Shown here in pieces: positions 1-24,566 of a stretch of DNA of 64,000 nucleotides. The notes below the pieces were generated by a model. That model saw only the letters and a list, made by a program, of their open reading frames with translations, was not told where the DNA came from and searched no databases. The translations under genes were made by a program, and so were the position numbers. Each line of letters opens with the position of its first letter. The stretch's first letter is position 1. Origin of the DNA: an uncultured Alphaproteobacteria bacterium (GTDB lineage: Bacteria; Pseudomonadota; Alphaproteobacteria; HIMB59); the NCBI GenBank assembly GCA_902521485.1, contig CABYRQ010000001.1, positions 310,001-374,000 of the forward strand, read 5' to 3'.

Positions 1-1128
1 CTTGAATCTGGAAGTGATTGTCTAATTACAGGTAAAGCATGCGCCGAGGGTGGAAATTCTACAGTGTGGATGTTTATTGCTATTGGAATAGCAGCCTTGA
101 TTTATCTTGTTTATTTACTTGTTAAACATAGAGACGGGCCAACAGTGTCTTTTATTATTGCAGCAATTGTAATTTTCTTTGGTTGTGTTTGGAGTGGCAC
201 AAGAGAGGCTTATTTTGTTAACGCTGATTTAGGCACCAACTTACAATATATTTTAAATTACGCTCCTCAGTATTTTACATCTGAATATCTAAGAGTTGGT
301 GCAGGGCTGCCCGACTTTTCATCTTCTTCGAGTGCTTTGGTTGGCCTCGCTTACGCTATCGCAACTTTAGGAGGAATAGTTTTCTTTACATCTGCGATAG
401 TAATAATTGCTATGCCAAAATTTAGAAAAGAAATCAAAACACAAACATTGGTATTATTTGCAATAGCAATATCTTTTGTTGTATTTGCTGCAATATCTTA
501 TTACGGAATTGAGTCAAATAGACAGAGTTTCTTCGGTATAGATGGATACGCTGTAATACTAATTTTATTTTTACTTTTTTTACTCACGGCACCAACTCTT
601 TTCTCGAATATAAATTTGAATAATGTTTTCATTATTTTCCTCGGTGTATTAGCAATACTCGCTGTTTACTTTTTAGCTTCACCTTCTGGAACCATTATTA
701 CTGATGATGGAAGTAAGTTTTACTCTCCAATTATTACAGAATTAATTGTTGGCGATACATCATCAATAAACTATACGAGACCTATCCGTGGTGAATTCAT
801 AACAAGTGATTTAACCTGGCTTAAAGAAGCAGCTCTAATTATATTTGCAATATTTGTATTTCAATTTTTTACATATTTAACTATGGGAGCAAAAATATCA
901 TTTGCTAGATTCAGACCTTACATTGCTATTTTAAGCATAGCTGCATTAACATGGTCTGCGATGTTTTTTGCAATTGGATACCCTTATTGGAAAATGATTT
1001 TAATTACAGCAATTGGAATAGCCATTTCGCCTCTGGTATGGCAAGCGTTTAGCGTTTATAAGATAAAATTAAAATCTCAAGAAGGACTTGAAAAATGGGG
1101 AGGTCTATCAGAAGATAGAAAAGTTTAG
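1..1128 (+). CDS. Multi-TM membrane protein, 5'-truncated by window edge (possible partner of the adjacent ABC permease)
   Basis: Reading frame is open to base 1 (LESGSDCLITGKACAEGG.. upstream of the listed GTG at 64); many hydrophobic segments; 3 nt upstream of the permease gene. Confidence 0.55.
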   Translation, partial: LESGSDCLITGKACAEGGNSTVWMFIAIGIAALIYLVYLLVKHRDGPTVSFIIAAIVIFFGCVWSGTREAYFVNADLGTNLQYILNYAPQYFTSEYLRVGAGLPDFSSSSSALVGLAYAIATLGGIVFFTSAIVIIAMPKFRKEIKTQTLVLFAIAISFVVFAAISYYGIESNRQSFFGIDGYAVILILFLLFLLTAPTLFSNINLNNVFIIFLGVLAILAVYFLASPSGTIITDDGSKFYSPIITELIVGDTSSINYTRPIRGEFITSDLTWLKEAALIIFAIFVFQFFTYLTMGAKISFARFRPYIAILSIAALTWSAMFFAIGYPYWKMILITAIGIAISPLVWQAFSVYKIKLKSQEGLEKWGGLSEDRKV

Positions 1129-1131
1129 TAA

Positions 1132-2523
1132 ATGGAGAAAAGAACTCATAATTTTTTAAAAGGACTTGGAATACTTTTTGCTGTTGCAGCTGGGATAGGT
1201 ACCGCAGTTCTTGGTTATGTAGACAGGACTGATTGGATACAGGTTGCATTTTACTCCGTAGCTGTTGTTGCCATTATTCTTTGGGGATGGCATTTTTTCT
1301 TAGTTAGATGGTCTTATCGATCTTTAGTAAAGGAGGATGGATCTCAACCTCCTGAGTCTACTGAAAATACAAGTAAAAGAAGCCTTTTTTGGGACCTTAT
1401 TGCAAAGAACTGGATAGCTGTTACAGGATTTTTACTTCTTTTAGGTCTTTTTATACTACTATGTTTCTTGGTACCCGGGTTCTTCTCAGGTAGAACAGTC
1501 GTATCAGCAATCATACTATTAGGTTTCTTAATCTTAGCATTTCTTGCATACAAATTTTTAAACATTAATAAGAGCGTGATAATAGGAGTCGCCGTGCTAG
1601 TTGGTCTTTTTATAATAGGGTCAGTTTCTATTGATGGCTTCTTATCATTACAAAATATTAAATCCATGTTAGTTTTTGCTTCTTTTTTAGGGCTTGCAAC
1701 TATTGGACAAACATTAGTTGTGATGTTAGGCGGCCTAGATTTATCAATACCATTTTTAATTGGCGCAACTAATTTAGGATTAATGTCACTTATTTCACTT
1801 GGAGTCCCTCCTTGGCTTGCGTTTATAGTTATTCTTGCTTTTGGTACGATTGTCGGGCTTTTCAATGGTTTGATAAGTTTTAATCTCCAAGGACAATCAT
1901 TAATAGTCACGCTTGGAGTTGGGTTTATGGTAGTAGGCGGAGTACAGATATTGGTGTCACTACCTACAGTTACAGGTGGAACTGTGTTTGGTGTAGTTCC
2001 AGACTGGTTAAAAAACTTAGCGTCATTAAATGGAAAATTTTTTGGTCTTCCAATACCTCCAGTTATATTAATTTGGATATTGATTTCAATTTTATTAATT
2101 GTTGGACTTAGACACACTAAGTGGGGAAGAAATTTATATGCTGTTGGAGGAAAAAGGTTATCTGCTGACAGATTATCAATTTCTGAGAGAGCCTATTGGG
2201 TTGGTGTTTACGTCATAAGTGGATTTACTTCTGCAGCAACAGGAGCAATGTTACTGGGTTGGAGTGGTGGAGGGTTCATTGGTGTAGGTGATCAATATTT
2301 ATTTTTAACAGTGGCAGCTGTGGCTGTAGGAGGAACTTCCTTATTAGGTGGCTATGGAGGTTACGGATTTACAGTAATAGGTGTTCTTGCACTTCAAGTT
2401 ATAAGTACATTTTTGGCTGGACTAGGTTTAAGTTTTGAGGGGCAACAATTTATATTCGGTCTTCTTATTCTGCCTCTTGTTGCACTTTATTCAAGAGCAC
2501 CCCATATAAGGGAGCAAATATAA
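1132..2523 (+). CDS. ABC transporter permease, ribose/simple-sugar type (BPD_transp_2 like) with N-terminal TM extension
   Basis: Motif TLVVMLGGLDLSIPFLIGATNLG and C-terminal GGTSLLGGYGGYGFTVIGVLALQ typical of RbsC-like permeases. Confidence 0.8.
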   Translation: MEKRTHNFLKGLGILFAVAAGIGTAVLGYVDRTDWIQVAFYSVAVVAIILWGWHFFLVRWSYRSLVKEDGSQPPESTENTSKRSLFWDLIAKNWIAVTGFLLLLGLFILLCFLVPGFFSGRTVVSAIILLGFLILAFLAYKFLNINKSVIIGVAVLVGLFIIGSVSIDGFLSLQNIKSMLVFASFLGLATIGQTLVVMLGGLDLSIPFLIGATNLGLMSLISLGVPPWLAFIVILAFGTIVGLFNGLISFNLQGQSLIVTLGVGFMVVGGVQILVSLPTVTGGTVFGVVPDWLKNLASLNGKFFGLPIPPVILIWILISILLIVGLRHTKWGRNLYAVGGKRLSADRLSISERAYWVGVYVISGFTSAATGAMLLGWSGGGFIGVGDQYLFLTVAAVAVGGTSLLGGYGGYGFTVIGVLALQVISTFLAGLGLSFEGQQFIFGLLILPLVALYSRAPHIREQI

Positions 2524-2647
2524 AAATAATGAGTTTAATCAACAGATTTTGTCGTTTTTACAATGAATATTTATTTCAAAATATGAAACAAAAATTATTA
2601 TTAGTTAAAGAGGACGGGTAATATGTACTTAAGAGGAATAAGTTTTA

Positions 2648-3349
2648 ATGAATAAAATGCTTCTGCCTTACGACATTGTAGGGGGGTCTTTTTGGTTAAT
2701 TTCTGTTGGCATGATTGGTGCCACCTTATTTTTCTTTTTTGAGCGTAGCAAAGTAAGCACAAGATTTCATACACCTATGACAATGATAGCTGTTGTATGC
2801 TTGATGTCCTCTATACATTATTTTTTCGTAAAAAATCTGTGGGTAGTCAGCGGCACCGCCCCTACTCTATTAAGGTATATAGATTGGTTTCTTAACTTTC
2901 CAATGCTTGTACTTATTTTTTATGCAATGCTTATGTCAGTTGTCAAAGTTAAACAAGGCATGTTCTGGAGATTATTGGTTGGAACATTAGTTTTTGTTGT
3001 AGCAGGTTTCTTAGGCGCAGCGGGTTATATGAGCAAGACATTAGGTTTCATTGTTTGGTTAGCTGGATGGTTGTACATCCTCGGTGAGCTATATGTTGGA
3101 GAGGCTGGAAGAGCAAATGCTAGATGCGGAAACGAAAATATACAAATGGTTTTCTTCTCGAACAGACTTATTATTACAATTGGATGGGCTATATATCCAA
3201 TGGGATATTTCATAGAGCATTTGGGTGGGGGTATTGATCCCAACAGTGTTAATGTGATTTATAATTTAGCAGACTTTTTAAATAAAATAGTTTTTGGTTT
3301 AATAATTTATAAAGCAGCAATACAAGACATGAGAGTTAATGGACAGTAA
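2648..3349 (+). CDS. Proteorhodopsin-family microbial rhodopsin with non-canonical D-N-I motif
   Basis: RYIDWFLNFPMLVLIFY (helix C), IHYFF (helix B His), GWAIYPMGYF, YNLADFLNKIVFGLII (Schiff-base Lys213); 7 TM pattern. Confidence 0.93.
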   Translation: MNKMLLPYDIVGGSFWLISVGMIGATLFFFFERSKVSTRFHTPMTMIAVVCLMSSIHYFFVKNLWVVSGTAPTLLRYIDWFLNFPMLVLIFYAMLMSVVKVKQGMFWRLLVGTLVFVVAGFLGAAGYMSKTLGFIVWLAGWLYILGELYVGEAGRANARCGNENIQMVFFSNRLIITIGWAIYPMGYFIEHLGGGIDPNSVNVIYNLADFLNKIVFGLIIYKAAIQDMRVNGQ

Positions 3350-3376
3350 CATCAATTTAGGAGGTGATAAATAGGT

Positions 3377-5365
3377 ATGAACATTACTAGTGGTGCAGAT
3401 ATTATTGCGATAATAATCTTAATAGCGTTAGCAATAGCAATTATAGTTTACTTGCTACATTGGTTATATAGGCGTTCCTCAAAGGAAATAGCGTTTGTTA
3501 GAACCGGTATGGGAGGTGAACAAGTTGTGATCAGTGGAGGTGCCTTCGTTTTACCTATTATTCACAATATTACCTCAGTAGGTATGAAAACTCTCTGTAT
3601 AGAGGTACAACGAAACGGAAGTAAATCCTTTATAACAAAAAATAGAATGAGGGCTGAAGTAACGGCTGAATTCTATGTGAGAGTAGCTCCTACAACTGAA
3701 GCTGTCTCAATAGCCGCGCAAACATTGGGAAATAGAACACTAGAGCCTGATCATTTAAAAGAACTTGTTCAAGGTCGTTTTGTTGATGGATTAGGTGTTG
3801 TTGCTGCAAAAATGAGTCTTGATGAAATTCAAGAGAATAGATCTGAGTATATTAAAAATGTTGCAGCTCACGTTGAAGAAGCAATCAAGCACACTGGTTT
3901 GGAGTTAGAAACTGTTTCCTTGACATCTCTTAACCAAGCACCTGTGGGTGTATTTGATCCATCTAATACATTTGATGCTGAGGGTTTAACTCAAATAACA
4001 GAATTTACTCAGTCACGTAAAAAGAAAAGAAATGATATTGAGAAAGATACAGAGGTTAGTATTCGAAATAAAAATCTCCAATCTATTAAACAAACTCTAG
4101 AAATTGAAAAAGAAGAGGAATTTTCAAAGTATCAACAAAAACGTGAAATCGAACAACAAAGAGCTATTGAAAATACTGAGACTGTAAAAACAAAAGCTGA
4201 GAAAGACAAAGAGTCTGAGTTGGCTGAAATCTCCTCAGAAAAAGATATTGAGATTGCTAAGATTAGCAAGAAAGACTTTGTTGAGATGGAAAAAAGTTTA
4301 CAAGAAACTAAGCTTATTCAAGAAATTGAAAAAAGAAGAAAAGAACAAAATGAGTTTAGACAACAAACTTCTATCGAGATTAAACAAAAAGACATTGAGA
4401 CAGAAAAAACTATTCTTGAATTGGAAAGAGATGTTGAATTTAGTCGTTTAGAAAAACAAAGATCAGTTGACATTAAACTTGCTGAGGAGAAAGCTCAAAC
4501 AGCAAAAGAAGAAGCTAGAAAAAGATATGAGTCTGAAGAGGCTTATATTATGGCTGAGGAGCAAATTAAAAATGCAAAAACTGCTCAACAGAAAAATGTT
4601 GATGCATTCAAAATTGCTGCGGAGCAAGAGACAAGAGTCTTAGATATCGAAAAGGCAAAAAGAATAGAAATCGAAGAAAAGCAAAAACAAATTGAAGTCT
4701 TAGAAAAATCTAAGTCAGTCTTAAAAACTAAAATGGAAGAAGAAAATGCTCGAGCTAAAGCAGTAGAAGCTGAGGAAAAAGTCAACACCATTCGAGATGT
4801 CGAACAAGCTGAAAAGACAAAAGCTCTAGGAGTAATAGACGCCAGTAAAAATGCTGAGAGAGAAAAATTAGCATCTATGGCTGCGAAAATTAGATATGAA
4901 ATTGAAGCAGCAGGCAAAAAAGCCCTAAATGAAGCGGAAAATGCTAGAAGTGATGCAAGTAGAAGAAGTGCTCTTAGACAAAAACTCGCTGAAAAAATTG
5001 AAGGTATTATTAGAGAATGGGTTAGACCTATGCAAAACATTGATTCAATTAAAGTTGTTGATGTAAATGGATTACCTGGATTTAGTCAGGGAGGAGGAGC
5101 TGAAGGAAGTGGTAACGCTGATAACCCGTCTGCATCTTCAGGTGGATATTCAAAAAAAGGATCTTTAGCAGATAATGTTGTGAATTCTGCTCTTCGATAC
5201 AGAGCACAACAGCCTTTCCTAGATAGTCTTTTAAAAGAAATTGGTATGTCCCCTGGTGAGGCAAGTAACATCAGGAATATTCTCGGTGACTATGATGATC
5301 CTAAGAAGGACAAGCATATGAGATTTGATGAACAAGCTACAAAAACACCCAGGAAAAAGAAATAG
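3377..5365 (+). CDS. Flotillin/YqiK-like SPFH-domain protein
   Basis: N-terminal TM, SPFH region (KEIAFVRTGMGGEQVVISGGAFVLPIIHNI), long E/K/A-rich coiled coil; strong SD (aggaggtgat) upstream. Confidence 0.88.
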   Translation: MNITSGADIIAIIILIALAIAIIVYLLHWLYRRSSKEIAFVRTGMGGEQVVISGGAFVLPIIHNITSVGMKTLCIEVQRNGSKSFITKNRMRAEVTAEFYVRVAPTTEAVSIAAQTLGNRTLEPDHLKELVQGRFVDGLGVVAAKMSLDEIQENRSEYIKNVAAHVEEAIKHTGLELETVSLTSLNQAPVGVFDPSNTFDAEGLTQITEFTQSRKKKRNDIEKDTEVSIRNKNLQSIKQTLEIEKEEEFSKYQQKREIEQQRAIENTETVKTKAEKDKESELAEISSEKDIEIAKISKKDFVEMEKSLQETKLIQEIEKRRKEQNEFRQQTSIEIKQKDIETEKTILELERDVEFSRLEKQRSVDIKLAEEKAQTAKEEARKRYESEEAYIMAEEQIKNAKTAQQKNVDAFKIAAEQETRVLDIEKAKRIEIEEKQKQIEVLEKSKSVLKTKMEEENARAKAVEAEEKVNTIRDVEQAEKTKALGVIDASKNAEREKLASMAAKIRYEIEAAGKKALNEAENARSDASRRSALRQKLAEKIEGIIREWVRPMQNIDSIKVVDVNGLPGFSQGGGAEGSGNADNPSASSGGYSKKGSLADNVVNSALRYRAQQPFLDSLLKEIGMSPGEASNIRNILGDYDDPKKDKHMRFDEQATKTPRKKK

Positions 5366-5374
5366 GTATAACTC

Positions 5375-5764
5375 ATGAGTTTAGATGTAAAATCCTGGGC
5401 AAAAAAATATAAAGAGCTTACTGAAAAAGATGAAACCATAAAAGCGATGGCTAAATATTACACTTGTTCATTTCTTTTCGACATGGGTAGTGTGAAGGTG
5501 ATTATCGAGATGCACGATGGAAAAGTTAAAAATATTAATACTAACCCTGGAGGTTTAGATCCATATGACTTTGCATTAAGGGCATCAGAGCAAACATGGA
5601 GAGAGTTTGCAAAGCCTGTTCCAAAACCTATGTTTCATGGTATCTATGCAGCCTCATTTAGAGAAGACCTCAAAATTGAGGGTAATCATTTAGTCTTAAT
5701 GCAAAATCTAAGAAACTTTACTGTTCAATTTGAATTGCTAAGACAATCAGGAGTTCCAGTATGA
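5375..5764 (+). CDS. Small protein, possibly SCP2 sterol-carrier-like fold
   Basis: Pattern VKVIIEMHDGKVKNINTNPGGLDPYDFALRASEQTWREF resembles SCP2-like domains; tightly follows the flotillin gene. Confidence 0.45.
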   Translation: MSLDVKSWAKKYKELTEKDETIKAMAKYYTCSFLFDMGSVKVIIEMHDGKVKNINTNPGGLDPYDFALRASEQTWREFAKPVPKPMFHGIYAASFREDLKIEGNHLVLMQNLRNFTVQFELLRQSGVPV

Positions 5765-5789
5765 TTAAGAAAATTGAAAGGAAAAATTT

Positions 5790-6653
5790 ATGGCAGTAAA
5801 ACATCATGACCCAATAGGTAGATACGTTACCATCGAGGTAGATGGTCAACAGTATAAAGTCTTTTATCTTTCAAATGGAAAAGGCACTCCATTAGTATGT
5901 CAGCATACTGCTGGATGCCACAATCATCAGTGGAGAGGATTACTGGAAGATGAAGAAATTACTCAAAATTATCAAGTTATCGCTTACGACCTTCCAAGAC
6001 ATGGTAAATCGGATCCACCTCATAATACAGAATGGTGGAAAGAGGAATATAAATTAACAGCAGAGCATTACTGTAATTTTATTGTGGAACTTTGTAAGGC
6101 CCTAGACCTTGAAAACCCTATATTTATGGGATCTTCTTTTGGAGGAAACGTGGCTCTTCAATTAGCTCTGAAGTATCCTAACAAATTTAAAGCTGTGATC
6201 CCTGTCGAGGCTGCGCATTACTCCCCTGGTTTTTATATTGATTGGTGGAGGCATCCTCATGCCAATGCAGCTCAAGTGTGTGGTAGTGGAGTTTGGGATT
6301 TAATGGCCCCACAATCTCCAGACATGGATAGATGGTTAACTTGGCATTATTACACTCAAGGATCAGAGGCTTTTAAAGGAGACCTTCATTTTTATTCAGT
6401 TGATCATGATTTAAGAGATGAGCTGCAAAATATCGATGGTCACAAGTGCCCTGTTATCATGCTGACTGGTACTTATGACTACCTAACCCCTCCCGAAGCA
6501 ACAGAAGATACTGCCAGACAAATAAAAGGAGGAGTTTATATTGAAATGAGAGATATTGGTCATTTCCCGATGAGTGAAAACCATGAAGTCTTTAGAGTAT
6601 ATTTATTAGAGGCACTCAGAATTATTAAGGAAAAGACTGATTACAACTCTTAA
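5790..6653 (+). CDS. Alpha/beta hydrolase
   Basis: Nucleophile elbow GSSFGGN; YDLPRHGKSDPP; C-terminal GH motif. Confidence 0.85.
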   Translation: MAVKHHDPIGRYVTIEVDGQQYKVFYLSNGKGTPLVCQHTAGCHNHQWRGLLEDEEITQNYQVIAYDLPRHGKSDPPHNTEWWKEEYKLTAEHYCNFIVELCKALDLENPIFMGSSFGGNVALQLALKYPNKFKAVIPVEAAHYSPGFYIDWWRHPHANAAQVCGSGVWDLMAPQSPDMDRWLTWHYYTQGSEAFKGDLHFYSVDHDLRDELQNIDGHKCPVIMLTGTYDYLTPPEATEDTARQIKGGVYIEMRDIGHFPMSENHEVFRVYLLEALRIIKEKTDYNS

Positions 6654-6667
6654 TTCAAGTTTGAGTT

Positions 6668-8722
6668 ATGGTCTCTAATCTATATTGGTTTTTTTTCTTT
6701 CTTGTCCTTTATATAAGCTTTTGTCTTTTTTGGGGAGCTAGAACTCTTAGAAAAAATAAAACCCCTGAGGCTTACTATTTAGCAGACAGAAGTGTATCTC
6801 CCTGGGTATTCTTTTTCTCTGCAACAGTAACTACATTTGCAGGCATAACTATCATTTCTTTTCCATCATTAATTTATGCAGATGGGTACTCTTTTCTAGC
6901 TACTGCTGCAATTGTAATAACAATTCCTCTTGGAAGTATATTATTTTTTAAAAGGCAGTGGATGCTAAGTAGAAAATTTAATTTTATCACTCCAGGAGAG
7001 ATGTATTACAAATATTATCAAAGTAATACTCTTAGAATTGTAGTCCTAATAATCGGATTATTTTTTGCTGTTCCGTTTCTTGGTATAATTATTGGATCAA
7101 CAGGTAATGTTGTAGAGTTTATCAGCGGAGGTGAAATAACTAGAGACTCTGCAATGTGGGCACTAACTGCTGTTGTCTTGTTTTATATAGTATCTGGTGG
7201 ATTTAAACCTATGGTGAGTGTAAGCGTTGTTCAATCATGGTTATTTTTTGTTTTTTTCTTAGCACTTGGAGTTGGTGTATTTAATTATTTAGGGGGTTTA
7301 AGTTTTTTTGAAGACCTATCTATGGCGAATAGCTTTATATCTTTCGGAGCTTGGGGAACTACCGGAGGTTACGGAGGCGGCGATATTTCAGGATATTTCA
7401 ACGTTCCTGGTGTAATTCAGTGGGTTGCAGGTATTGGAAAAAATAACCCTTTAGGAGGCCCTTGGACAGCAGTTATGATTTTATCCTTTACTCTCTCTTA
7501 TATGGGTATTGTGCTTTCTCCTACATTTTCGATGTGGAGCTATTCAGTAAAATCACCAAGGTCGTTTTACTTTTATCAAGTTTGGGGGTCAGGTGCTGTA
7601 GTTGGAATATTTTTATTTATATTCGCCCCTTTATTAGGTGTTGGAGCACATCTTCTTGGAGCTAATAGTATTGTTAATTCAAATGGTTTTGCCATTAACC
7701 AAATATTCCCTGAGATAAGTCTACAAAATATATCATCTTTAATTTATGTGTTTGTTGAAAGTTTCAGTAATCTCTCACCAATCATTGTTGGATTTTTAGC
7801 AATATCCATAATTGCTGCTCTTCAATCTACATTATCTGCTTTTTTAATGACCTCAGGCAGCATGGTGGCAAGAGATCTCTATAGACCATATATCGATAGT
7901 AACCCTACATGGAAAAGGGAGTTATTAGTTGCTAGGTTAGCGATGTTGTTATTAAGCTTAGCGGCACTGTATCTTGCAACTTTTTTTGAAACTTCTCTAA
8001 TATTACTTGGTGGATTAGCAATCGCTTTTGGTTTCCAATTATTTCCTGTTTTACTTGGAATGCTTTGGTTTAAATGGATCACTAGGGGTGGGGCAATTCT
8101 AGGACTCATCACCGGATTAGGTTTTGTAACTTTAGCTGAAACTTTTGGTCATAAGCTAACAGGAAATTCTCTTCCTTGGGGGCGATGGCCACTGACAATC
8201 TACTCTGGTTTATGGGGTTTATTCTTTAATGTGATTGTATGTTTTTTATCCTCTATATTTGCAAGTAACGATACAGATAAAGAACATCGAGCATCATTTC
8301 ACAATTTTTTAAATGAACATATGGGTATTCACCCATCAAGAAAAAAAATAAAATCTCTTGCCTATGTCTTTTTTTTAATTTGGGCATTCTTTTCTATCGG
8401 CCCAGGTTTAATTTTTGGAAACTTAATATTTGGTAGCGCTGATCAAAGTTATGATAATTGGGTGATGGGAGTCCCCTCACTATGGGCTTACCAAATAATT
8501 TGGTGGGTAGCGGGTATATTTCTAATTTGGTTTTTAGCAAATAAGATGGACTTATCGACTTTGCCAAAAAAACCCATACTAAATGGTGATGAATATTTGG
8601 CACCTGACGATGTTGAGGAGCAAGGAAACTATATTGATAGAATGGGAGGCGGATATGGTTGGCCACTTATATTAATAGGAATGGCTGTGGCAACTGTAAT
8701 ACTTTCCGTTTATGCATTATAA
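6668..8722 (+). CDS. Sodium:solute symporter (SSS family)
   Basis: 684 aa, multi-TM, N-terminal YYLADRSVSPWVFFFSATVTTFAG typical of SSS family. Confidence 0.85.
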   Translation: MVSNLYWFFFFLVLYISFCLFWGARTLRKNKTPEAYYLADRSVSPWVFFFSATVTTFAGITIISFPSLIYADGYSFLATAAIVITIPLGSILFFKRQWMLSRKFNFITPGEMYYKYYQSNTLRIVVLIIGLFFAVPFLGIIIGSTGNVVEFISGGEITRDSAMWALTAVVLFYIVSGGFKPMVSVSVVQSWLFFVFFLALGVGVFNYLGGLSFFEDLSMANSFISFGAWGTTGGYGGGDISGYFNVPGVIQWVAGIGKNNPLGGPWTAVMILSFTLSYMGIVLSPTFSMWSYSVKSPRSFYFYQVWGSGAVVGIFLFIFAPLLGVGAHLLGANSIVNSNGFAINQIFPEISLQNISSLIYVFVESFSNLSPIIVGFLAISIIAALQSTLSAFLMTSGSMVARDLYRPYIDSNPTWKRELLVARLAMLLLSLAALYLATFFETSLILLGGLAIAFGFQLFPVLLGMLWFKWITRGGAILGLITGLGFVTLAETFGHKLTGNSLPWGRWPLTIYSGLWGLFFNVIVCFLSSIFASNDTDKEHRASFHNFLNEHMGIHPSRKKIKSLAYVFFLIWAFFSIGPGLIFGNLIFGSADQSYDNWVMGVPSLWAYQIIWWVAGIFLIWFLANKMDLSTLPKKPILNGDEYLAPDDVEEQGNYIDRMGGGYGWPLILIGMAVATVILSVYAL

Positions 8723-8827
8723 TGATAAAGTACTTAAAATTGAGGAGGAATAAGAATTTTTCGTATTGTGTTTCATTATTTGGAACAAAAAACTGTGCGA
8801 AAGGTTAACTATATTTAAAATATAATT

Positions 8828-9256
8828 ATGTCTGATTATAGCTACAAGCATCCCTCAAATGTTCAGTTAAATAAAGGACATAAACACACTGATGATTTTA
8901 TTACCAAAAAATACATTTTAAAAATGTTGAGAGATCCTCAAAAATTAAAATCTTTAATTGAAGAACACAGAGCAACTCCAGTTGGAAGGGCTGCTACTCG
9001 AGACCATGGCGTCATTCAGCATAGCCAAGATCTCCAAACATTATTAGATAAGTTAAGAAGAGGAAGTAAAGAAAATGGTTTTGTAACTGTTTGTTTAAGA
9101 AGGCATGAAGATTATAGAGTTGGAATAACAACAGGAGTTAGAGGTGAGCCAGTTGAAATAACTGAAGACTCTTATTCATCTGAAGAGGCATGTGAACATG
9201 CAATATTTTTAAAAAGAATTAACAGACTTCTTGAGGAGTATAGTGGGGAAGAGTAA
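8828..9256 (+). CDS. N,N-dimethylformamidase small (alpha) subunit-like protein
   Basis: C-terminal EDYRVGITTGVRGEPVEI..SSEEACEHAIFLKRINRLLEE resembles remembered DMFase alpha subunit; overlaps the start of the large subunit gene. Confidence 0.75.
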   Translation: MSDYSYKHPSNVQLNKGHKHTDDFITKKYILKMLRDPQKLKSLIEEHRATPVGRAATRDHGVIQHSQDLQTLLDKLRRGSKENGFVTVCLRRHEDYRVGITTGVRGEPVEITEDSYSSEEACEHAIFLKRINRLLEEYSGEE

Positions 9257-11589
9257 TGTTAAAAATAACAGGTTATAGTGATAAGTACTCAGCTCATCCA
9301 GGTGAAGAAGTTAAATTTTATATTAATGCTGAATACAATGATAGTTATGAAGTTCAATTAGTCCGTCTTATACACGGTGATACAAATCCTGAAGGCCCTG
9401 GGTATAAAGAAGCTGAAATAGATGCCAGTTGTAATGGAACTTATCAAGGGAAAAACCAGAGAATACATGGTGGATCGTACATCATCATGCCTCAGCATGA
9501 TAATTTAAATTTAGAGAGCTTTACTATGCAAGCTTATATTTTTCCTACAACGCCAGATAAAGGTAGACAAGGAATTTTCACTAAATTTAATGAAGAAGAA
9601 AAAAAAGGCTATGGTCTCTTTATTAATGATGAGGGATGTTTATCTGTAGAAATAGGAGATGGATCTCAGGTTGTTACTGTCTCCTCAGAAAAAAAACTTT
9701 TAAGAAAAGTCTGGTATCTGGTAATTGCAACATTTGATGCACAATCAAGAAGGCTTACCCTTCATCAAGAACCTAGGGTTACATCCACAAATGGTGGTTT
9801 AGGTATGGCTATTTTGAATCCAATTGAAGAAACCTCAGCTATTATTGAGACCACTAGTTCAGTTTTACCTGCCGCTAATGATGCTCCATTGTTAATTGCA
9901 GCTACTACATTAAATAATAGATCTGGTAGGCACATTTCCGGAGGTCATTTTAAAGAAGTACCTCATCCCATTGAATTACCTGAGCAAACCAAGACTTTTA
10001 ATGGCAAGATAGATAGACCTAGATTATCTAATATTGCTTTATCTAAGGCTGAGATCGAAACACTTGCATCAAGCTATGATGAGTGTAATACCACTGTCAG
10101 GTCAACAGTCGTAGGCGCTTGGGACTTTCATGCGAATATTGGCAAAAACATTGCTTCAACAAAGATTGTTGATACTTCTCCAAATAATCACCACGGATTT
10201 ATTATTAATATGCCAAACAGAGGTATGACAGGACATAACTGGACTGCGGATGAAATGGTTTTCCATCACAAACCTGAAGAGTATGGAGCTATCCATTTCC
10301 ATGATGATGATATTGATGATGCAAGATGGGATGTTGATTTTACATTAAAAATCCCAGAGGGTCTGAAAAGTGGTGTGTATGCTGCTCGACTTAGAGTTGA
10401 TGGAAGAGAAGAGTCAGAAAATGAAGATTATATTCCTTTTTGTGTAAAACCTCCAAAAGGGACAGCCACAGCTAAAATTTTATTTCTCTTACCCACAAAC
10501 AGTTATATGGCTTACTCCAATGATAATCTTGGAACTAATTCTGTCGTAGCTCAATTACTCGCAGGTAAAGTTCCTGTGCTAGAACCTGCAGATTTATATT
10601 TAAATGAACACAGAGAATATGGTTTATCAACTTACTCACTTCACTCTGATGGACATGGTGTATCTATTTCATCAAGACTTAGACCAATCCTTAATATGAG
10701 ACCTAAATACAGACATTGGCTTTCTCCATCATTATGGCAACTAAATGCCGACTTACATTTAACAGACTGGCTTGAGGAAAAGGGCTTTGAGTTTGATGTT
10801 CTTACAGATGAAGATTTGGAACATGAAGGTATAAATTTATTAAATCGTTATAAAGTTGTGATGACTGGAAGTCATCCTGAGTATTCATCTGAGAAATATA
10901 TGGACGCCTTAGAGTCCTATCAAATGCAAGGTGGTAGATGTTTTTATTTAGGTTCGGATGGATTTTACTGGATTAGTGAATATCATCCAGACAACTCCAA
11001 TATTACTGAAGTACGAAAAGGTGAGGCTGGCACAAGAGCATGGACATCTAACCCAGGTGAATACAATAATGCTTTTGATGGTAAATATGGGGGTATGTGG
11101 AGAGCTCGAGGAAGAATACCCTCTAAAGTTTGTGGTTTAACTTTTACATCATATGGATTTGACGTTTCTTCATACTACAAAAGAGAAGAAGATAGTTTTA
11201 AACCTGAATGTTCATGGATCTTTGAAGGGATTGGAGCAGATGAGGTTATTGGTGACTTTGGTTTAGTCGGTGGAGGAGCTGCCGGTTTAGAGTTAGACAG
11301 GTACGACTTAGAATTTGGTACTCCGCATAATGCCTATTATTTGGCTCGTTCACAAGATCACTCTAATATGATGTTGCAAGTTAACGAGGAGATACACTTT
11401 GCAGTTCGCGGCTATTATGGCGGTGGTCATGAAAATCCAATGGTAAGAGCTGATATGATTTACTATAAAACACCTAACAACGGAGCAATGTTTGCACCAG
11501 GGTCTTTGGCTTGGTGCGGTAGTCTTTCTCATAATAATTATAATAATAATGTCTCAGAATTATGGAAAACACTCTTAAAGGTTTTTTAA
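9256..11589 (+). CDS. N,N-dimethylformamidase large (beta) subunit-like protein with inserted LamG/ConA-like domain
   Basis: 777 aa; LamG-like segment (SFTMQAYIFPTTPDKGRQGIFTKF); C-terminal domain with SYMAYSN, YSLHSDG and SHPEYS (H-x-E) consistent with DMFase iron site. Confidence 0.85.
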   Translation: MLKITGYSDKYSAHPGEEVKFYINAEYNDSYEVQLVRLIHGDTNPEGPGYKEAEIDASCNGTYQGKNQRIHGGSYIIMPQHDNLNLESFTMQAYIFPTTPDKGRQGIFTKFNEEEKKGYGLFINDEGCLSVEIGDGSQVVTVSSEKKLLRKVWYLVIATFDAQSRRLTLHQEPRVTSTNGGLGMAILNPIEETSAIIETTSSVLPAANDAPLLIAATTLNNRSGRHISGGHFKEVPHPIELPEQTKTFNGKIDRPRLSNIALSKAEIETLASSYDECNTTVRSTVVGAWDFHANIGKNIASTKIVDTSPNNHHGFIINMPNRGMTGHNWTADEMVFHHKPEEYGAIHFHDDDIDDARWDVDFTLKIPEGLKSGVYAARLRVDGREESENEDYIPFCVKPPKGTATAKILFLLPTNSYMAYSNDNLGTNSVVAQLLAGKVPVLEPADLYLNEHREYGLSTYSLHSDGHGVSISSRLRPILNMRPKYRHWLSPSLWQLNADLHLTDWLEEKGFEFDVLTDEDLEHEGINLLNRYKVVMTGSHPEYSSEKYMDALESYQMQGGRCFYLGSDGFYWISEYHPDNSNITEVRKGEAGTRAWTSNPGEYNNAFDGKYGGMWRARGRIPSKVCGLTFTSYGFDVSSYYKREEDSFKPECSWIFEGIGADEVIGDFGLVGGGAAGLELDRYDLEFGTPHNAYYLARSQDHSNMMLQVNEEIHFAVRGYYGGGHENPMVRADMIYYKTPNNGAMFAPGSLAWCGSLSHNNYNNNVSELWKTLLKVF

Positions 11590-11612
11590 AGGATGGGCCT
11601 TTACCTTAAATT

Positions 11613-11972
11613 ATGAAAAAACAAAATATGCAGGAGATACCATGGGGAAAAGAAACACTTGGCGCTCTGGATACTCCGTTAAATGAGCTAGAAAAAAAAG
11701 CACTTCAAAATTTAGACGTAGATAAATTAAATGATATGGCAGAGTGCCTTTTTGCTTTAAATAACAGGCATTATGGTCCTATACCTGGAACATATATGGT
11801 TATGTGTGTTGAGCCGGGTAAGACTTGGTGTGTTGGGCAGCTTAGTGCTGATAGAGCAAAACCTTTTGTTCTTTTTCCTGAACTTGTTTTCGACTCAGTT
11901 GAAAAAGCAACAAAAGCTGCCGAAGCTCTAAAGGCTGAAAAAGCTGAGGGCGTACCCTGTAGAAATATCTAA
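11613..11972 (+). CDS. Unknown 119-aa protein in DMFase-like cluster
   Basis: Co-directional, tight spacing, no family recognised. Confidence 0.6.
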   Translation: MKKQNMQEIPWGKETLGALDTPLNELEKKALQNLDVDKLNDMAECLFALNNRHYGPIPGTYMVMCVEPGKTWCVGQLSADRAKPFVLFPELVFDSVEKATKAAEALKAEKAEGVPCRNI

Positions 11973-11976
11973 CGAC

Positions 11977-12252
11977 ATGGCTAAAGCCAATGTCATGATA
12001 GATAATCAAAAAACCAGAGTTACAGAGTGGTCTTTTGAAGTTGGGGACTCAACTGGTCAGCATATCCATGAATACGATTATGTGGTAGTACCCTTGTTAG
12101 ATGGGGAACTAAAAATTGTCAATCATGATGGCGAGGAAACAATTTCAAAACTAGCAAAAGGTGGATCTTACTTTAGAGAAAAGGGAGTTAACCACAATGT
12201 ATTTAATAACAATGATTTTATTTATAAATTTATTGAGATAGAATTTAAATAG
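11977..12252 (+). CDS. Small cupin-domain protein
   Basis: STGQHIHEYDYVVVPLLDGELKIV cupin pattern. Confidence 0.75.
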   Translation: MAKANVMIDNQKTRVTEWSFEVGDSTGQHIHEYDYVVVPLLDGELKIVNHDGEETISKLAKGGSYFREKGVNHNVFNNNDFIYKFIEIEFK

Positions 12253-13206
12253 ATGGAAAAAAAATTAGGCGTTATTTACAAAAAATCTGATTTAGATCAA
12301 TTTGATAAAATTATTACAAATAAACAGACAGATCAAAAAGTTAAAGAATATTCCATAAAAGAAGCAATTGAAGAGTCAAAAAAAGAATATAGTCACTTGA
12401 CGAACTCGCAAGTTTCTACTGATATGAGACTCTATATGTTCCAGACCGGAACTCTAAAAACAAAAATGAAATATATAAAAATGAATCAATCTAATGAGGA
12501 CTTTGAGATACCTGTTCCATGGTTTTTGATAAGACACCCAAAAGGGGATGTGGTAATTGATGGAGGTAATGCAAAAGAGGTTAGTGAAGATAAACATGCT
12601 CATTGGGGTTCTGTTGTTGCGGCTTATGATCCAATTATGGGAAAAACTGAAAATTGTATTGATCAACTTAACTCTATTGGGGTTAATCCAGCAGGTATAA
12701 GATATGTCTTACATTCTCATCTTCACCTCGATCACTCAGGTGGTGTTGGAAGGTTTCCTAATGCAACACACCTAGTTCAACAAAAGGAATATGATTATGC
12801 TTTTAATCCTGATTGGTTCTCAAAGCCTGCTTATATTAGAAAAGACTTTGATAAACCTGGAATTAATTGGAAATTTTTAAGAGATAAAAATGATGACTTT
12901 TATGACTTATATGGCGACGGATCAATAATTGTAATTTTTACTCCGGGGCATGCACCGGGCCATCAGTCTTTTTTAGTTAATTTACCAAATTCTGGTTATG
13001 TATTGCTTACTATAGATGCAGCTTACACAATGGATCATTGGAACAATTTAACACTACCAGGTCTTGTTTGCTCTGCCGTTGACGTTGTTGACTCTGTAAA
13101 AAAATTAAAAAAAATTGCAAAAGACAGAAATGCTACAGTAGTCACTGGGCACGACCCGCATGCTTGGGAAGAATTTAAAAAAGCCCCAATGTTTTATTAC
13201 GACTAA
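12253..13206 (+). CDS. Metallo-beta-lactamase-fold hydrolase, N-acyl-homoserine-lactonase-like subfamily
   Basis: HSHLHLDHSGG, later GHAPGHQS and GHDPHAW metal-site motifs. Confidence 0.85.
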   Translation: MEKKLGVIYKKSDLDQFDKIITNKQTDQKVKEYSIKEAIEESKKEYSHLTNSQVSTDMRLYMFQTGTLKTKMKYIKMNQSNEDFEIPVPWFLIRHPKGDVVIDGGNAKEVSEDKHAHWGSVVAAYDPIMGKTENCIDQLNSIGVNPAGIRYVLHSHLHLDHSGGVGRFPNATHLVQQKEYDYAFNPDWFSKPAYIRKDFDKPGINWKFLRDKNDDFYDLYGDGSIIVIFTPGHAPGHQSFLVNLPNSGYVLLTIDAAYTMDHWNNLTLPGLVCSAVDVVDSVKKLKKIAKDRNATVVTGHDPHAWEEFKKAPMFYYD

Positions 13207-13209
13207 TTT

Positions 13210-14517
13210 ATGTCTGACTATTTCAAAGATATACCTACAATTAAATATGAAGGTAGAGATTCTACAAATCCTCTTTCATTTAAATTTTATGATGCTAATA
13301 AAAAAATTCTAGGAAAAACATTAGAGGAACATTTGAGAATGGCAGTATGTTACTGGCACACTTTTAATTGGCCGGGGGGTGACCCTTTTGGAGGACAGAC
13401 TTTTTTAAGACCTTGGATGGAAGCAGGAGATAAAATAGAACAAGCAAAAGATAAGCTCAATAATGCATTCGTTTTTTTTGAAAAATTAGGAATACCATAT
13501 TTTTGTTTTCATGATGTAGATGTTGCTCCAGAGGGTGAAAGTTTTTCAGATACAGAAAAAATTCAAAAAACTATAATTGATGAAATTTCAAAAAAACTTG
13601 AAACAAGTAAAGTTAAACTTCTTTGGGGAACAGCAAATTTATTCAGCCACCGCAGGTACATGTCTGGTGCTGCTACTAATCCTGATCCTGATGTTTTTCA
13701 ATATGCAGCTGCTCAAGTGAAGATGTGTATGGAAAATACAATGTTTTTAGGTGGACAAAATTATGTTTTATGGGGAGGCAGAGAGGGTTACGAAACAATT
13801 CTAAATACTAATATGAAACAAGAATATGATCAGCTTGGTAGATTTTTGAACATTGTAGCTGAGCATAAACACAAAATTGGTTTCAAGGGTTCACTTCTGA
13901 TTGAGCCTAAACCCCATGAGCCAACTAAACATCAATATGATTTTGACTCTGCTAATGTTTTTGCATTTCTTCAAAAATATGGTTTAGAAAGAGAATTCAA
14001 GCTAAATATCGAACAAAATCACGCTATTTTAGCAAAACATTCATTCGAGCACGAGATCGCCTATGCACTTTCCAATGACATCTTTGGAAGTATTGATATT
14101 AACAGAGGAGACTATTTAGTAGGATGGGACACAGACCAATTCCCAAACAATGTAGAAGAGTTAGTTTTGCCTTTTTACTATATTTTTAAAAACGGCGGTT
14201 TTTCCTCAGGAGGTCTTAATATGGATGCTAAGATTAGAAGACAATCAATAGATCCTGAAGATCTATTTTATGCACATATTGGCTCTATGGATACTTGCGC
14301 AAGAACTCTTATTGCTGTTGAAAAAATGATTAACGATGGTAGTTATGATAATTTTTTAAAACAAAGATACGAACAGTGGACCTCTGAAAAACAACTTATG
14401 ACTTCTATGTCTCTTGAAGAAATTCATAAAAATGTCATTGCTAAAAATATAAACCCTCAACCAAAGTCTGGTCGCCAAGAATATCTTGAAAATCTAATTA
14501 ATTCTTTTGTCGATTGA
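13210..14517 (+). CDS. xylA: Xylose isomerase
   Basis: [64 protein letters not shown]. Confidence 0.95.
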
Positions 14518-15127
14518 GTCGATGAAAATTACAAAATTTCTATTTGATTTAGGTAATGTTTTTTTTGATTGGGATCCACATTATGTATTTAAAAATATCA
14601 TTCCTGATCAAACTAAAAGAGAATATTTTATGAATACAATCGCGTTTCCTCATTTAGATATGAGATGCGATGCTGGAGTAAAAATTGATGACGCAGTTGA
14701 AGATGCAATAAAAAATTACCCTAATTATGAGAATGAAATAAAGCAATATTATCCAAATCATAGGAATATGGTTAACAGGGTTTATCAAGATACAGTTGAT
14801 ATTTTTCGAAAAATAAAATCAAGTGGTTACCCCTGCTATGTCTTGTCAAACTGGTCAGATGAGACTTATGAGGGTATGGAAGATCAACACCCATTCCTGA
14901 AAGAATTTGATGATAAAATTATCTCAGGTAGAGAGTTTTTAGTAAAACCAGACCCTGAAATTTATAAATTAGCGATTTCAAGATTTAATTTAACACCCGA
15001 ACAAACTCTTTTCATTGATGATCGTATTGAAAATATTGAGGCGGCGCAATCACTTGGCTTTCAAACTATTCATTTAACTGACCCACTGGCAATAAAAAGT
15101 CAAATAGCAAATCATATAATTGTTTAA
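14507..15127 (+). CDS. HAD-family hydrolase (likely phosphatase)
   Basis: [35 protein letters not shown] motifs. Confidence 0.85.
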
Positions 15128-16073
15128 ATTAGACAATAAAATAGGCCTAGGATTGGCTTCTCTTGGGAGACCCGGATATATAAACATTGGTCATAGTTCA
15201 GATTTAGGCAGCGACATATCAAAAAATTCTATGAGATCTCATTGTCACGATGTTCTTAGCCATGCCTACAAGAGAGGTATTCGATATTTCGATGCGGCAA
15301 GGGTATATGGAGATGCTGAGGAATTTTTATCTAGCTGGATTAGAGCTCAAAAACAATTTGATGGTTTTGTGGGGTCTAAGTGGGGCTATGAATATTTAGC
15401 AAATTGGGAAGTTCAGGCAGATCAACATGAAAGAAAAGATCACTCAGTTGAATTTTTAAAACAACAATGGGTTGAGACAAGACTTAATTTAGGAAAAAGT
15501 ATTGATTTATATCACATTCATTCTGTGAATTCAGAAAGTAAAGTCTTAGATGATATTAATGTTCTAAAGGAGCTTGAGACAATAAAAAAAAATGGAATAG
15601 AAATAGGAATCTCAACAAGTGGCCCAGATCAAGAGAAAACTATTAATGACCTTTTATTTAAGAATGAAAAACTTAATCTATTTTCTTATTTACAAACGAC
15701 CATTAATATCTTTGACCAATCTTGTATTTCCATTTTAAAAGAAGTATCTGAAAAAAAGATCAATGTAATTGCAAAAGAGATTTTCTCAAATGGAAGACTA
15801 ACTAATTCAAATAAAGAATTTCATCAAAACAAAATTAAAGAATTAAAGTCAGTTGCCTCATCTATGGATTTAACTTTGGAGCAATTGTCTTATCTTTGGG
15901 TTTATCAACTACCATTTGTTAAAATTTGTCTAACAGGAGCATCAACAATCGAACAGTTAGATGAAAATCTAAGTTGTCTTGAAAAAATAGATACCGAATT
16001 GCCCTCTCTTGAGTCTTTTAGTTTGTCCACTCAAGATTATTGGGATACACGTAAAAAACTTATTTGGAATTAA
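15120..16073 (+). CDS. Aldo/keto reductase family protein (TTG start)
   Basis: RYFDAARVYGDAEEFL, GSKWGY, IDLYHIHS, LTGASTIEQLDEN. Confidence 0.85.
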   Translation: MFKLDNKIGLGLASLGRPGYINIGHSSDLGSDISKNSMRSHCHDVLSHAYKRGIRYFDAARVYGDAEEFLSSWIRAQKQFDGFVGSKWGYEYLANWEVQADQHERKDHSVEFLKQQWVETRLNLGKSIDLYHIHSVNSESKVLDDINVLKELETIKKNGIEIGISTSGPDQEKTINDLLFKNEKLNLFSYLQTTINIFDQSCISILKEVSEKKINVIAKEIFSNGRLTNSNKEFHQNKIKELKSVASSMDLTLEQLSYLWVYQLPFVKICLTGASTIEQLDENLSCLEKIDTELPSLESFSLSTQDYWDTRKKLIWN

Positions 16074-17227
16074 TTGAAATTTACCCAGCTTGAATTTGAT
16101 GAGCTTGAGGCGATTGACCTTACGATAAATTTAATACCCTCAAGTCCATCTTCTACACTTGGAAAATGATGATTTTCCTCATTAAATTTGCCATTTTTCT
16201 GATCAATTAGTGCATTAGCTACATCTGTATATATATTTGCAAAGCCCTCTAAATATCCCTCGGGGTGTCCGGCAGGAATTCTTGTAACATCTCCCGCATC
16301 GCTCATAGCACCTGATCCACCTCTTGTAATTTTTTGTTTGGGTTCTCCAAATTTTGTAAAGTAAAGGTAATTTGGATCTTCTTGACACCATTCTAGTCCG
16401 GCCTTATTACCATAAATTCTTATTTGTAAATGATTTTCATTTCCTGGGGCTACTTGTGAAGACCAGATAGTGCCTTTTGCTCCTCCTTTAAATCGTAACG
16501 ATATTTGAGCATTATCATCTAATTTTCTCCCAGGCACAAAAGATGTTAACTCTGCTGATATCTCCTCTGTATTGAGATCAGTGATAAACCTAATCAGATT
16601 GTAAGCATGAGTTCCAATGTCACCAATACACCCACCAGCACCTGATTGATTAGGATCAGTTCTCCAAGAGGCCTGTTTGTTTCCCCCATCATTAATTCTA
16701 TTTTCTAAATCTTCGGTCAGCCAATCTTGAGCATACTCTGCTTGAATTACTCTTATTTCACCTAAGTCACCTCTCTTACAAAGAGCTCTGGCATTCCTAA
16801 TCATGGGATAACCAGTGTAGTTATGAGTTAAAGCAAAAAGAACGTTATTTTCTTTTTTACATTTTATAAGTTCCTCACATTGATTAATATTCATGGCAAG
16901 GGGTTTGTCACAAATTATGTTAAAACCTTTCTCCATGAAAGCTTTAGCGATCGGATGGTGCATATGATTTGGTGTCACTATAGCTACAGCATCTATTTTA
17001 TCCTCTCTGATCAATTCTTTTTCGACCATTTCAAGGTAGTCCTTATAATTCCTTTCATCTGCTATTCCAATATCTCTGCCAGAGGCTTGAGCTTTTTCAG
17101 GATTAGATGAAAAGGCACCAGCGACCAGTTCAAATCGGTCATCAATTCTAGATGCTATACGGTGAACTTCTCCAATAAATGCTCCTGAGCCACCACCAAC
17201 CATTCCTAATTTTAATTTTTTGGTCAT
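16070..17227 (-). CDS. Gfo/Idh/MocA-family oxidoreductase
   Basis: GMVGGGSGAFIGEVH nucleotide-binding motif, DAVAIVTPNHMHHPIAKAFMEKGFNIICDKPLA; start trimmed to MTKKLKLGMVGG. Confidence 0.9.
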   Translation of the reverse strand: MTKKLKLGMVGGGSGAFIGEVHRIASRIDDRFELVAGAFSSNPEKAQASGRDIGIADERNYKDYLEMVEKELIREDKIDAVAIVTPNHMHHPIAKAFMEKGFNIICDKPLAMNINQCEELIKCKKENNVLFALTHNYTGYPMIRNARALCKRGDLGEIRVIQAEYAQDWLTEDLENRINDGGNKQASWRTDPNQSGAGGCIGDIGTHAYNLIRFITDLNTEEISAELTSFVPGRKLDDNAQISLRFKGGAKGTIWSSQVAPGNENHLQIRIYGNKAGLEWCQEDPNYLYFTKFGEPKQKITRGGSGAMSDAGDVTRIPAGHPEGYLEGFANIYTDVANALIDQKNGKFNEENHHFPSVEDGLEGIKFIVRSIASSSSNSSWVNFN

Positions 17228-17231
17228 ATTA

Positions 17232-18284
17232 TCATTCAATTCCAAGCATTTTTTTGTTTGCATCTTGATCAGTGCCAGCATCGGCAAAATCATCGAAAGC
17301 ATTCTCGGTAACTCTAATTAAATGATCTTTAATAAATACAGAACCCTCTTTAGCTCCGTCTTCAGGATGTTTCAAAGCACACTCCCATTCTAAAACAGCC
17401 CATCCATCAAAGCCGTAAGTAGTAAGTTTGGAGAAAATTGACTTGAAATCGACTTGCCCATCTCCTAAAGATCTAAATCGACCTGCTCTGTTCTTCCAAG
17501 ATTGAAATCCACTATAGACCCCTTGTTTACCAGTGGGATTGAGTTCTGCGTCTTTGACATGAAACATTTTTATTTTCTCGTGATAAATATCAATATGCTG
17601 CAAATAATCTAAATGCTGCAAAACAAAGTGGCTAGGATCATATAACATGTTGCAGCGCTCATGATTACCTACTTTATCTAGAAACATTTCAAAAGTTATT
17701 CCATCAAAAAGATCCTCGCCTGGATGAATTTCATAACATAAATTCACCCCACACTCATCAAATTCATTGAGAATAGGTTTCCACCTTTTGGCCAGTTCAT
17801 CAAATGCAGTTTCAACTAACCCTTCTGGTCTTTGAGGCCATGGATAAACATATGGCCAAGCCAATGCTCCTGAAAAAGTAACATGTTCAGTCAATCCAAA
17901 ATTTTTCGAAGCCTTAGCGGCCATCATTAATTGATCAACTGCCCATTGCTGCCTTGCAGATGGATTTCCTCTTACCTCTGAGGCTGCAAAACCATCAAAT
18001 ACAGAGTCATATGCAGGATGAACAGCTACAAGTTGACCTTGGAGATGCGTTGATAGCTCAGTTAGATTTAAATTAAAACTTTTAAGAGTCCCTTTTATTT
18101 CGTCACAGTAATCTTTGCTTTCAGATGCCTGTTTTAAATTAATTAACCTCTCATCCCAACTAGGTATCTGAACACCTAAGTATCCCAAATCACTAGCCCA
18201 TTTTGAGATATTCTCTAAATTGTTAAACGGAGCATCATCACCTGCAAATTGAGCTAAAAATATAGCTGGACCTTTAATAGACAT
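17232..18284 (-). CDS. Sugar phosphate isomerase/epimerase-like TIM-barrel protein
   Basis: NLCYEIHPGEDL, MLYDPSHFVLQHLD, IKMFHVKDAE motifs. Confidence 0.85.
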   Translation of the reverse strand: MSIKGPAIFLAQFAGDDAPFNNLENISKWASDLGYLGVQIPSWDERLINLKQASESKDYCDEIKGTLKSFNLNLTELSTHLQGQLVAVHPAYDSVFDGFAASEVRGNPSARQQWAVDQLMMAAKASKNFGLTEHVTFSGALAWPYVYPWPQRPEGLVETAFDELAKRWKPILNEFDECGVNLCYEIHPGEDLFDGITFEMFLDKVGNHERCNMLYDPSHFVLQHLDYLQHIDIYHEKIKMFHVKDAELNPTGKQGVYSGFQSWKNRAGRFRSLGDGQVDFKSIFSKLTTYGFDGWAVLEWECALKHPEDGAKEGSVFIKDHLIRVTENAFDDFADAGTDQDANKKMLGIE

Positions 18285-18432
18285 CGCTTAATCCCCCTCC
18301 TGCGACAAACTATAATATTACAGTTAACTGCTATTTAAAATGTTTTTAAAATTATGAATAATCTGCATTTATAAATATGTAAAAAGACTGTATAATCAGC
18401 CAGTTTTGTTATTAAAGAGGAGGAATAATAAC

Positions 18433-19743: not shown

Positions 19744-19759
19744 TCACTAAATTAATATA

Positions 19760-19783
19760 AAGGGTGGGATTAATCCCACCCTT
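19760..19783. repeat. Perfect 24-bp palindrome / mRNA stem-loop between binding protein and permease genes
   Basis: AAGGGTGGGATTAATCCCACCCTT. Confidence 0.9.
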
Positions 19784-19798
19784 CAATCTAAAACATAT

Positions 19799-21645: not shown

Positions 21646-21836
21646 TGGCTGAGAAAAAAAGTTTATTGAGAAGAATTTTTAGAAGATCCATTTGGGAAAA
21701 TGCATCAACTGTTTTAATTTTATTGGGTGTATTTATGCTGATGCAGCCTTTTGCTATGTGGATGTACACATATTCCTTTATCGTTATTTTGGTGGGAACT
21801 ATCGGATTTGTAATCACAAGTCATTTCCCAGATTAG
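21645..21836 (+). CDS. Small membrane protein within ABC transporter operon (63 aa)
   Basis: MAEKKSLLRRIFRRSIWENASTVLILLGVFMLMQPF..; start overlaps permease stop (TAATG). Confidence 0.75.
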   Translation: MAEKKSLLRRIFRRSIWENASTVLILLGVFMLMQPFAMWMYTYSFIVILVGTIGFVITSHFPD

Positions 21837-21838
21837 CC

Positions 21839-24557: not shown

Positions 24558-24566
24558 GAGGATACT

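Follow-up and report, generated by a model that had tools for sequence, protein, structure and literature searches.

The locus at positions 2648-6653 of the window (the whole stretch analyzed, 64,000 nt long, positions 310,001 to 374,000 of contig CABYRQ010000001.1 from an uncultured alphaproteobacterium of the HIMB59 lineage) raises the question of what a rhodopsin does in a tight gene run with a flotillin, an SCP2-like protein, and an alpha/beta hydrolase. The four genes are co-directional on the + strand and are separated by 27, 9, and 25 nt, as the coordinates of their open reading frames confirm. An earlier note, made from the DNA sequence alone, had proposed a possible light-responsive or membrane-organizing module rather than a simple proton pump. 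The run is almost certainly the core of a FArhodopsin (FAR, flotillin-associated rhodopsin) gene cluster. Our main reading, to which we give a probability of about 0.5, is that FAR acts as a light-independent membrane organizer of an uptake and amide-catabolism system, a function that we infer from sequence comparison.

The assignment as a FArhodopsin is illustrated by the properties of the gene and its protein. The flotillin gene follows on the same strand after the 27-nt gap. In helix C, the D-T-E motif of proton acceptor and donor found in proton pumps is replaced by D79-N83-I90, which is the DNI variant of the DTT, DTL, and DNI motifs of FArhodopsins and supports the view that the protein is not a simple proton pump. 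The N-terminal leader of about 23 aa is missing in the alignment to the proteorhodopsin of the same genome. As in marine members, this bona fide proteorhodopsin (48% identical) is encoded elsewhere (C1:56370-57035, C1 being the contig of the window). The FArhodopsin cluster of HIMB59-clade bacteria has been published by Haro-Moreno et al. (2023, PMC10308929), and the window cluster shows no essential difference from it. Both share the DNI motif, the absent leader, the kept lysine, the flotillin as next gene, a sterol-carrier-like gene, a symporter, N,N-dimethylformamidase (DMFase) and biotin-dependent carboxylase genes, and a separate proteorhodopsin elsewhere in the genome. The rhodopsin–flotillin association itself is already known; the earlier note missed it, together with the largely uptake and catabolic nature of the operon. 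The membrane-organizing role that it suggested is plausible and equals the published hypothesis.

Proteorhodopsins (e.g. 4JQ6, GPR) belong to the same Pfam family as the window FAR, which keeps their retinal lysine and primary counter-ion positions but differs in the proton donor (E to I), in the T to N substitution, in the absent leader, and in gene context. In the rhodopsin tree, the canonical proteorhodopsins take one side with a support of 100/99, and the window FAR lies outside of them. Its best match among solved structures is PsFAR (2e-91), while proteorhodopsins are matched only from 2.5e-58. No relative of the window rhodopsin was found in viral contigs.

The order of the first two genes is strictly conserved. 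In a scan of GTDB species genomes, a flotillin directly follows FAR in 80 of 80 loci with gaps of -3 to 58 nt, an adjacency that is far beyond chance and that answers the gene-neighborhood check named in the earlier note. The cluster has been described as behaving like a variable island and is missing from some genomes of the same genus (e.g. G111), as would be expected if inheritance on such an island alone kept the genes together and the rhodopsin were functionally unrelated to flotillin and the enzymes. This explanation is highly improbable, since the FAR–flotillin order and the short gaps persist across several classes despite rearranged gene content, and since transcript reads of SAR11 cover both genes (PMC10308929). 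Within the order, flotillin is present in 44 of 162 genomes and the SCP2-like gene in 42, in essentially the same set of genomes; the differences lie mostly at contig ends. Between HIMB59 and SAR11, the highest identity is found for the hydrolase (85-88%), followed by the SCP2-like protein (74-80%) and the DMFase-like large subunit (71-78%), and the rhodopsin (65-70%) and flotillin (62-69%) are less conserved. In one genome of the same genus, the flotillin is split into two frames by a TAG stop beside an intact FAR (G126:C3:24424-26410), for which a sequencing error is possible. One metagenome-assembled genome (MAG), G118, holds two FAR clusters on separate contigs (L037 and L038), of which one is HIMB59-like (88%) and one SAR11-like (66%), probably due to mixed binning.

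The conserved cluster is larger than four genes and is largely devoted to uptake and catabolism. Upstream of FAR lie the permeases, ATPase, and binding protein of an ATP-binding cassette (ABC) importer, as well as a YcsF/carboxyltransferase/biotin carboxylase set that is related to 5-oxoprolinase and urea carboxylase. A homolog of permease 1 precedes FAR in L101, L116, L118, L165, and L202-L205. The order permease 2–FAR–flotillin is shared by HIMB59, two SAR11-type loci, Chromatiales, Hyphomicrobiales, and five loci whose FAR lacks the retinal lysine. The comparative evidence suggests that the question moves from light toward uptake and catabolism. In the proposed model, FAR would span the membrane with seven helices, carry no retinal, and, probably as an oligomer as in PsFAR, form a light-independent membrane platform with flotillin. 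This platform may gather or stabilize the adjoining ABC importer and the Na+/solute symporter. It could thereby couple uptake to the enzymes of the same operon, namely the DMFase-type iron amidohydrolase, the SCP2-like/hydrolase pair, and the AttM lactonase, with putative relatives of lactam-opening enzymes nearby. A ParA-type partition ATPase (NCBIfam NF041546, above cut-off) is encoded divergently 221-329 nt before FAR in 40 SAR11-type loci (e.g. L109:9127-9765). In the window genome, it is found about 14 kb upstream of FAR (L003:7921-8559, corresponding to C1:297921-298559). Such an ATPase might position membrane domains.

The light-independent part of the model draws on FARs that have lost the lysine. 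In six genomes that are 95-100% complete (G708, G990, G1072, G1026, G1048, and G1014), all from one alphaproteobacterial family distinct from that of the window, a lysine-less FAR stands directly before flotillin. The lysine is replaced by R or L and the counter-ion D by G or A. Five of the six loci carry the permease directly before FAR and additionally the binding protein, ATPase, hydrolase, and SCP2-like genes; the sixth, L206, is a short contig. The lactonase is present in four of the five long loci. Each genome gave a single rhodopsin match with a query that detects normal proteorhodopsins in G992 and G930. The blh gene was not found in G708, G990, G1072, G1048, and G1014, and two genomes of this family that encode a proteorhodopsin do have it. 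The lysine-less FARs are under purifying selection, with a ratio of nonsynonymous to synonymous substitution rates (dN/dS) of about 0.04-0.21, and the one that was compared matches PsFAR (3e-41) better than proteorhodopsins (7e-33 and weaker). Since lysine-less FARs thus occur in genomes without another rhodopsin and mostly without blh, the light-responsive role offered in the earlier note is left unsupported.

The retinal genes of the window genome have to be considered separately. It is true that neither blh nor crt genes occur in the window, as first noted, but this is incomplete: blh, crtI, crtB, and crtE flank the second rhodopsin, a DTE-Q proteorhodopsin about 255 kb from the FAR cluster, at C1:52-58 kb (the crt names were read by eye from translations, except for blh and the phytoene-synthase family). 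Their absence from the window therefore says nothing about the cell. With a DTE proteorhodopsin and a retinal pathway in the same genome, FAR may instead be an accessory of this proteorhodopsin, with flotillin gathering both proteins and FAR adjusting or enhancing proton pumping under dim light, as argued in PMC10308929. Single-cell data published earlier (PMC10308929) show FAR only together with a proteorhodopsin, so genomes with FAR as sole rhodopsin bear directly on the proposed partnership. Lysine-bearing FARs of this kind are found in three MAGs from Chromatiales (G902), Hyphomicrobiales (G903), and a gammaproteobacterium (G904), in which no match to another rhodopsin, blh, an RPE65-type oxygenase, or a phytoene/squalene synthase was detected. 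Together with the lysine-less examples, nine genomes hold FAR and flotillin with no other rhodopsin found, and FAR is linked to importer and catabolic genes, not to the proteorhodopsin locus. The accessory role is accordingly improbable.

The linkage of flotillin to amidohydrolase and importer also recurs independently of rhodopsin. In three genomes of the window's genus (G112, G119, and G120; loci L179-L181), another flotillin, 35-39% identical, is placed directly before the DMFase small and large subunit genes. A Liv-type ABC importer adjoins them, and the neighborhood holds no rhodopsin. The third gene follows in two of the three loci (in L180 the contig ends). Differences from the window cluster are the missing rhodopsin, the divergent flotillin, and the importer type.

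The partner of the SCP2-like gene is the hydrolase and not flotillin. Its SCP2 assignment is below the Pfam cut-off (14.6 bits against 21.3, E 0.043), none of 12 family members matches Pfam SCP2 at E 0.01, and the profile has no sequence match among solved structures. In a fold model of low confidence (pLDDT 54), SCP2-type proteins take the first seven places among the PDB matches. Among 399 sampled genomes of the phylum, 12 loci match the SCP2-like protein, counting that of the window and reaching down to about 21% identity, and all 12 have a hydrolase homolog adjoining it; FAR and flotillin are near the pair only in the window genome and G708 in the wider neighborhoods fetched. SCP2-like protein and hydrolase are an old pair, which weakens the partnership with flotillin and lipids that had been read from the SCP2 fold.

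The active site of the DMFase-like enzyme is largely preserved. The large subunit aligns over its full length with the N,N-dimethylformamidase of Paracoccus (6LVB). The 2-Tyr-1-Glu iron ligands (Y420, Y460, and E542) and the catalytic histidine and glutamate (H540 and E679) are conserved, and the catalytic Asn547 of DMFase is replaced by D568 (reference residues from PMC7686228; the comparison excludes L126, L134, L140, and L150). As a result of this substitution, the substrate or the chemistry may differ from DMFase. In the Chromatiales and Hyphomicrobiales FAR clusters, caprolactamase-type CapA/CapB genes (L116:2107-6215 and L118:2119-6214) are located near the position of the YcsF/carboxylase set and replace it; the L116 copy of this two-subunit enzyme is above the CapA and CapB cut-offs. 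The presence of two unlike lactam-opening enzyme types in one kind of cluster suggests a lactam or a similar substrate. Judged from the enzyme families, the substrate is probably a small molecule that bears an amide, lactam, or lactone. Degradation of quorum signals (N-acyl homoserine lactones) by AttM and the amidohydrolase was considered as well and found no specific support.

The residues around the retinal pocket allow a further explanation. PsFAR (PDB 9R21; H84V/E120G mutant 9R23; released 2025) is 57-58% identical to the window FAR and shares its numbering. The window FAR, with its lysine at K213, carries F84, G120, W137, N83, and I90 in place of H84, E120, G137, T83, and M90. Its lineage comprises 30 near-identical sequences, which are set apart from the HIMB59 sisters by Q87L, E120G, and G137W. 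Neither L87 nor W137 was seen in the sister lineages, and the natural G120 equals the change that the PsFAR depositors engineered in 9R23 (with H84V). F84 and W137 may refill space in the pocket. A reduced or missing retinal pocket is a further trait ascribed to FArhodopsins; the structure model of the window FAR (pLDDT 58) is too poor for a reading of the pocket, and the comparison was made by residues with 9R21 and 9R23 instead. As positions 84, 87, 120, and 137 vary between lineages and decanoate is present in a solved structure of retinal-free proteoopsin (8CNK), FAR might be a receptor that holds a small hydrophobic ligand, perhaps the cluster substrate, in the vacated pocket and signals to or gates uptake. 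Most loci have no dedicated signaling partner, however, and regulator- or sensor-like genes (judged by eye) are found near only the gammaproteobacterial L119. Such a receptor is less probable still than the accessory role.

Several observations weigh against a retinal-free organizer. In marine FARs, including that of the window, strong purifying selection maintains the lysine, H57, R76, D79, and D209 (in the HIMB59 comparisons dS is saturated, so that only the low dN is meaningful), an odd finding for a protein that never binds retinal. Many FARs stem from the lower photic zone according to published read data. The grouping of FAR with the lysine-less proteins is unrooted in the rhodopsin tree, G1026 carries a partial blh-family match, and G902-G904 are MAGs of unstated completeness. 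Finally, the DMFase pair is missing from the lysine-less loci seen, and an amide may therefore not be the common substrate. The first of these points would fit a FAR with retinal or another carotenoid derivative as ligand, one that senses light or acts as a slow photoreceptor without pumping and in this way regulates uptake: lysine and counter-ions are kept in all marine FARs examined, apart from isolated D/E changes, and the W-Y-P of helix F is retained in the window lineage. There is no transducer gene in the run, however, one clade has lost both the lysine and the D with its operon intact, lysine-bearing hosts occur without blh, and a DTT relative failed to bind retinal when produced in E. 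coli (Olson et al., cited in PMC10308929). A photoreceptor is thus unlikely, though less so than the accessory or the ligand receptor.

The light-independent organizer, for which the window's own FAR would have to be free of retinal, is tentatively extended to the whole group. FArhodopsins would then be retinal-independent seven-helix proteins that organize an ABC importer and catabolic enzymes together with flotillin, the rhodopsin fold having been recruited as a structural organizer of uptake in hosts that may lack any other rhodopsin or retinal synthesis. We hold this extension to be somewhat less likely than its converse. Lysine-less FARs adjoining flotillin were earlier known from freshwater metagenome contigs (PMC10308929), and the new part is their whole-genome context. 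To the extent searched, the apparent additions to PMC10308929 are near-complete genomes with a lysine-less FAR as sole rhodopsin, the pairing of SCP2-like protein and hydrolase, the importer linkage through the shared permease–FAR–flotillin order, the rhodopsin-free flotillin–DMFase operon, and lysine-bearing FARs in Chromatiales, Hyphomicrobiales, and gammaproteobacterial MAGs without another rhodopsin. Some of the marine bacteria that carry FArhodopsins rank among the most abundant ones, and the SAR11 and HIMB59 carriers are largely uncultured and not readily open to deletion tests. A cultured AEGEAN-169 isolate, LSUCC0245, is reported to have two rhodopsins (PMC10308909). Deletion tests would be possible in cultivable members, if available, of the alphaproteobacterial family whose near-complete, non-streamlined genomes hold one lysine-less FAR and no blh.

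Features of the FAR cluster in the window (positions in nt)
Feature	Position	Strand	Evidence or remark
ABC importer permease 1, C-terminal part	1..1128	+	gene start upstream of window; open frame C1:308846-311128, 760 codons
ABC importer permease 2, BPD_transp_2, ribose/galactofuranose type	1132..2523	+	Pfam 4.2e-19
FArhodopsin, proteorhodopsin family, 233 aa	2648..3349	+	Pfam Bac_rhodopsin 1.7e-31
Shine-Dalgarno site AGGAGGTGAT of flotillin gene	3359..3368	+	sequence; 8 nt 5' of ATG
Flotillin, 662 aa	3377..5365	+	Pfam Flot 2.1e-29 and Band_7 9.5e-14
SCP2-like small protein, 129 aa	5375..5764	+	Pfam SCP2 E 0.043, under cut-off; fold-model matches
Alpha/beta hydrolase, 287 aa, GSSFGG nucleophile motif	5790..6653	+	Pfam Abhydrolase_1 2.9e-21
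Sodium:solute symporter (SSF)	6668..8722	+	Pfam 6.8e-16
Candidate DMFase-like small subunit, 142 aa	8828..9256	+	adjoins large subunit, co-conserved; no Pfam match
N,N-dimethylformamidase-like large subunit	9256..11589	+	Pfam DMFA2_C 3.3e-91; 6LVB 6.5e-190
119-aa protein, core gene near DMFase pair	11613..11972	+	no Pfam family
Small cupin	11977..12252	+	Pfam Cupin_2 2.5e-07
AttM-type lactonase, metallo-beta-lactamase fold	12253..13206	+	NCBIfam NF045700 426.6 bits, cut-off 390

Both flotillin domains, SPFH (PF01145) and the C-terminal Flot domain (PF15975), are above their Pfam cut-offs. The Shine-Dalgarno sites, described as good in the earlier note, are strong for flotillin and adequate for rhodopsin and hydrolase but weak for the SCP2-like gene. 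Promoter and terminator scans of 2300-9000 were not informative: promoter matches were below the shuffled mean, and just two weak stem-like terminator matches were obtained, just inside the rhodopsin gene. An Rfam search of 1-20000 gave zero matches, and PADLOC assigned no defense family to the flotillin, the SCP2-like protein, or the hydrolase. After the FAR cluster, the window continues with a sugar or polyol catabolic region (13210-25559). It contains a xylose isomerase (above the NCBIfam cut-off), HAD, aldo-keto reductase, and Gfo/Idh-type genes, xylose-isomerase-like TIM-barrel genes, and, as named by eye, a sugar-type ABC importer and a dihydroxyacetone-kinase-like pair.

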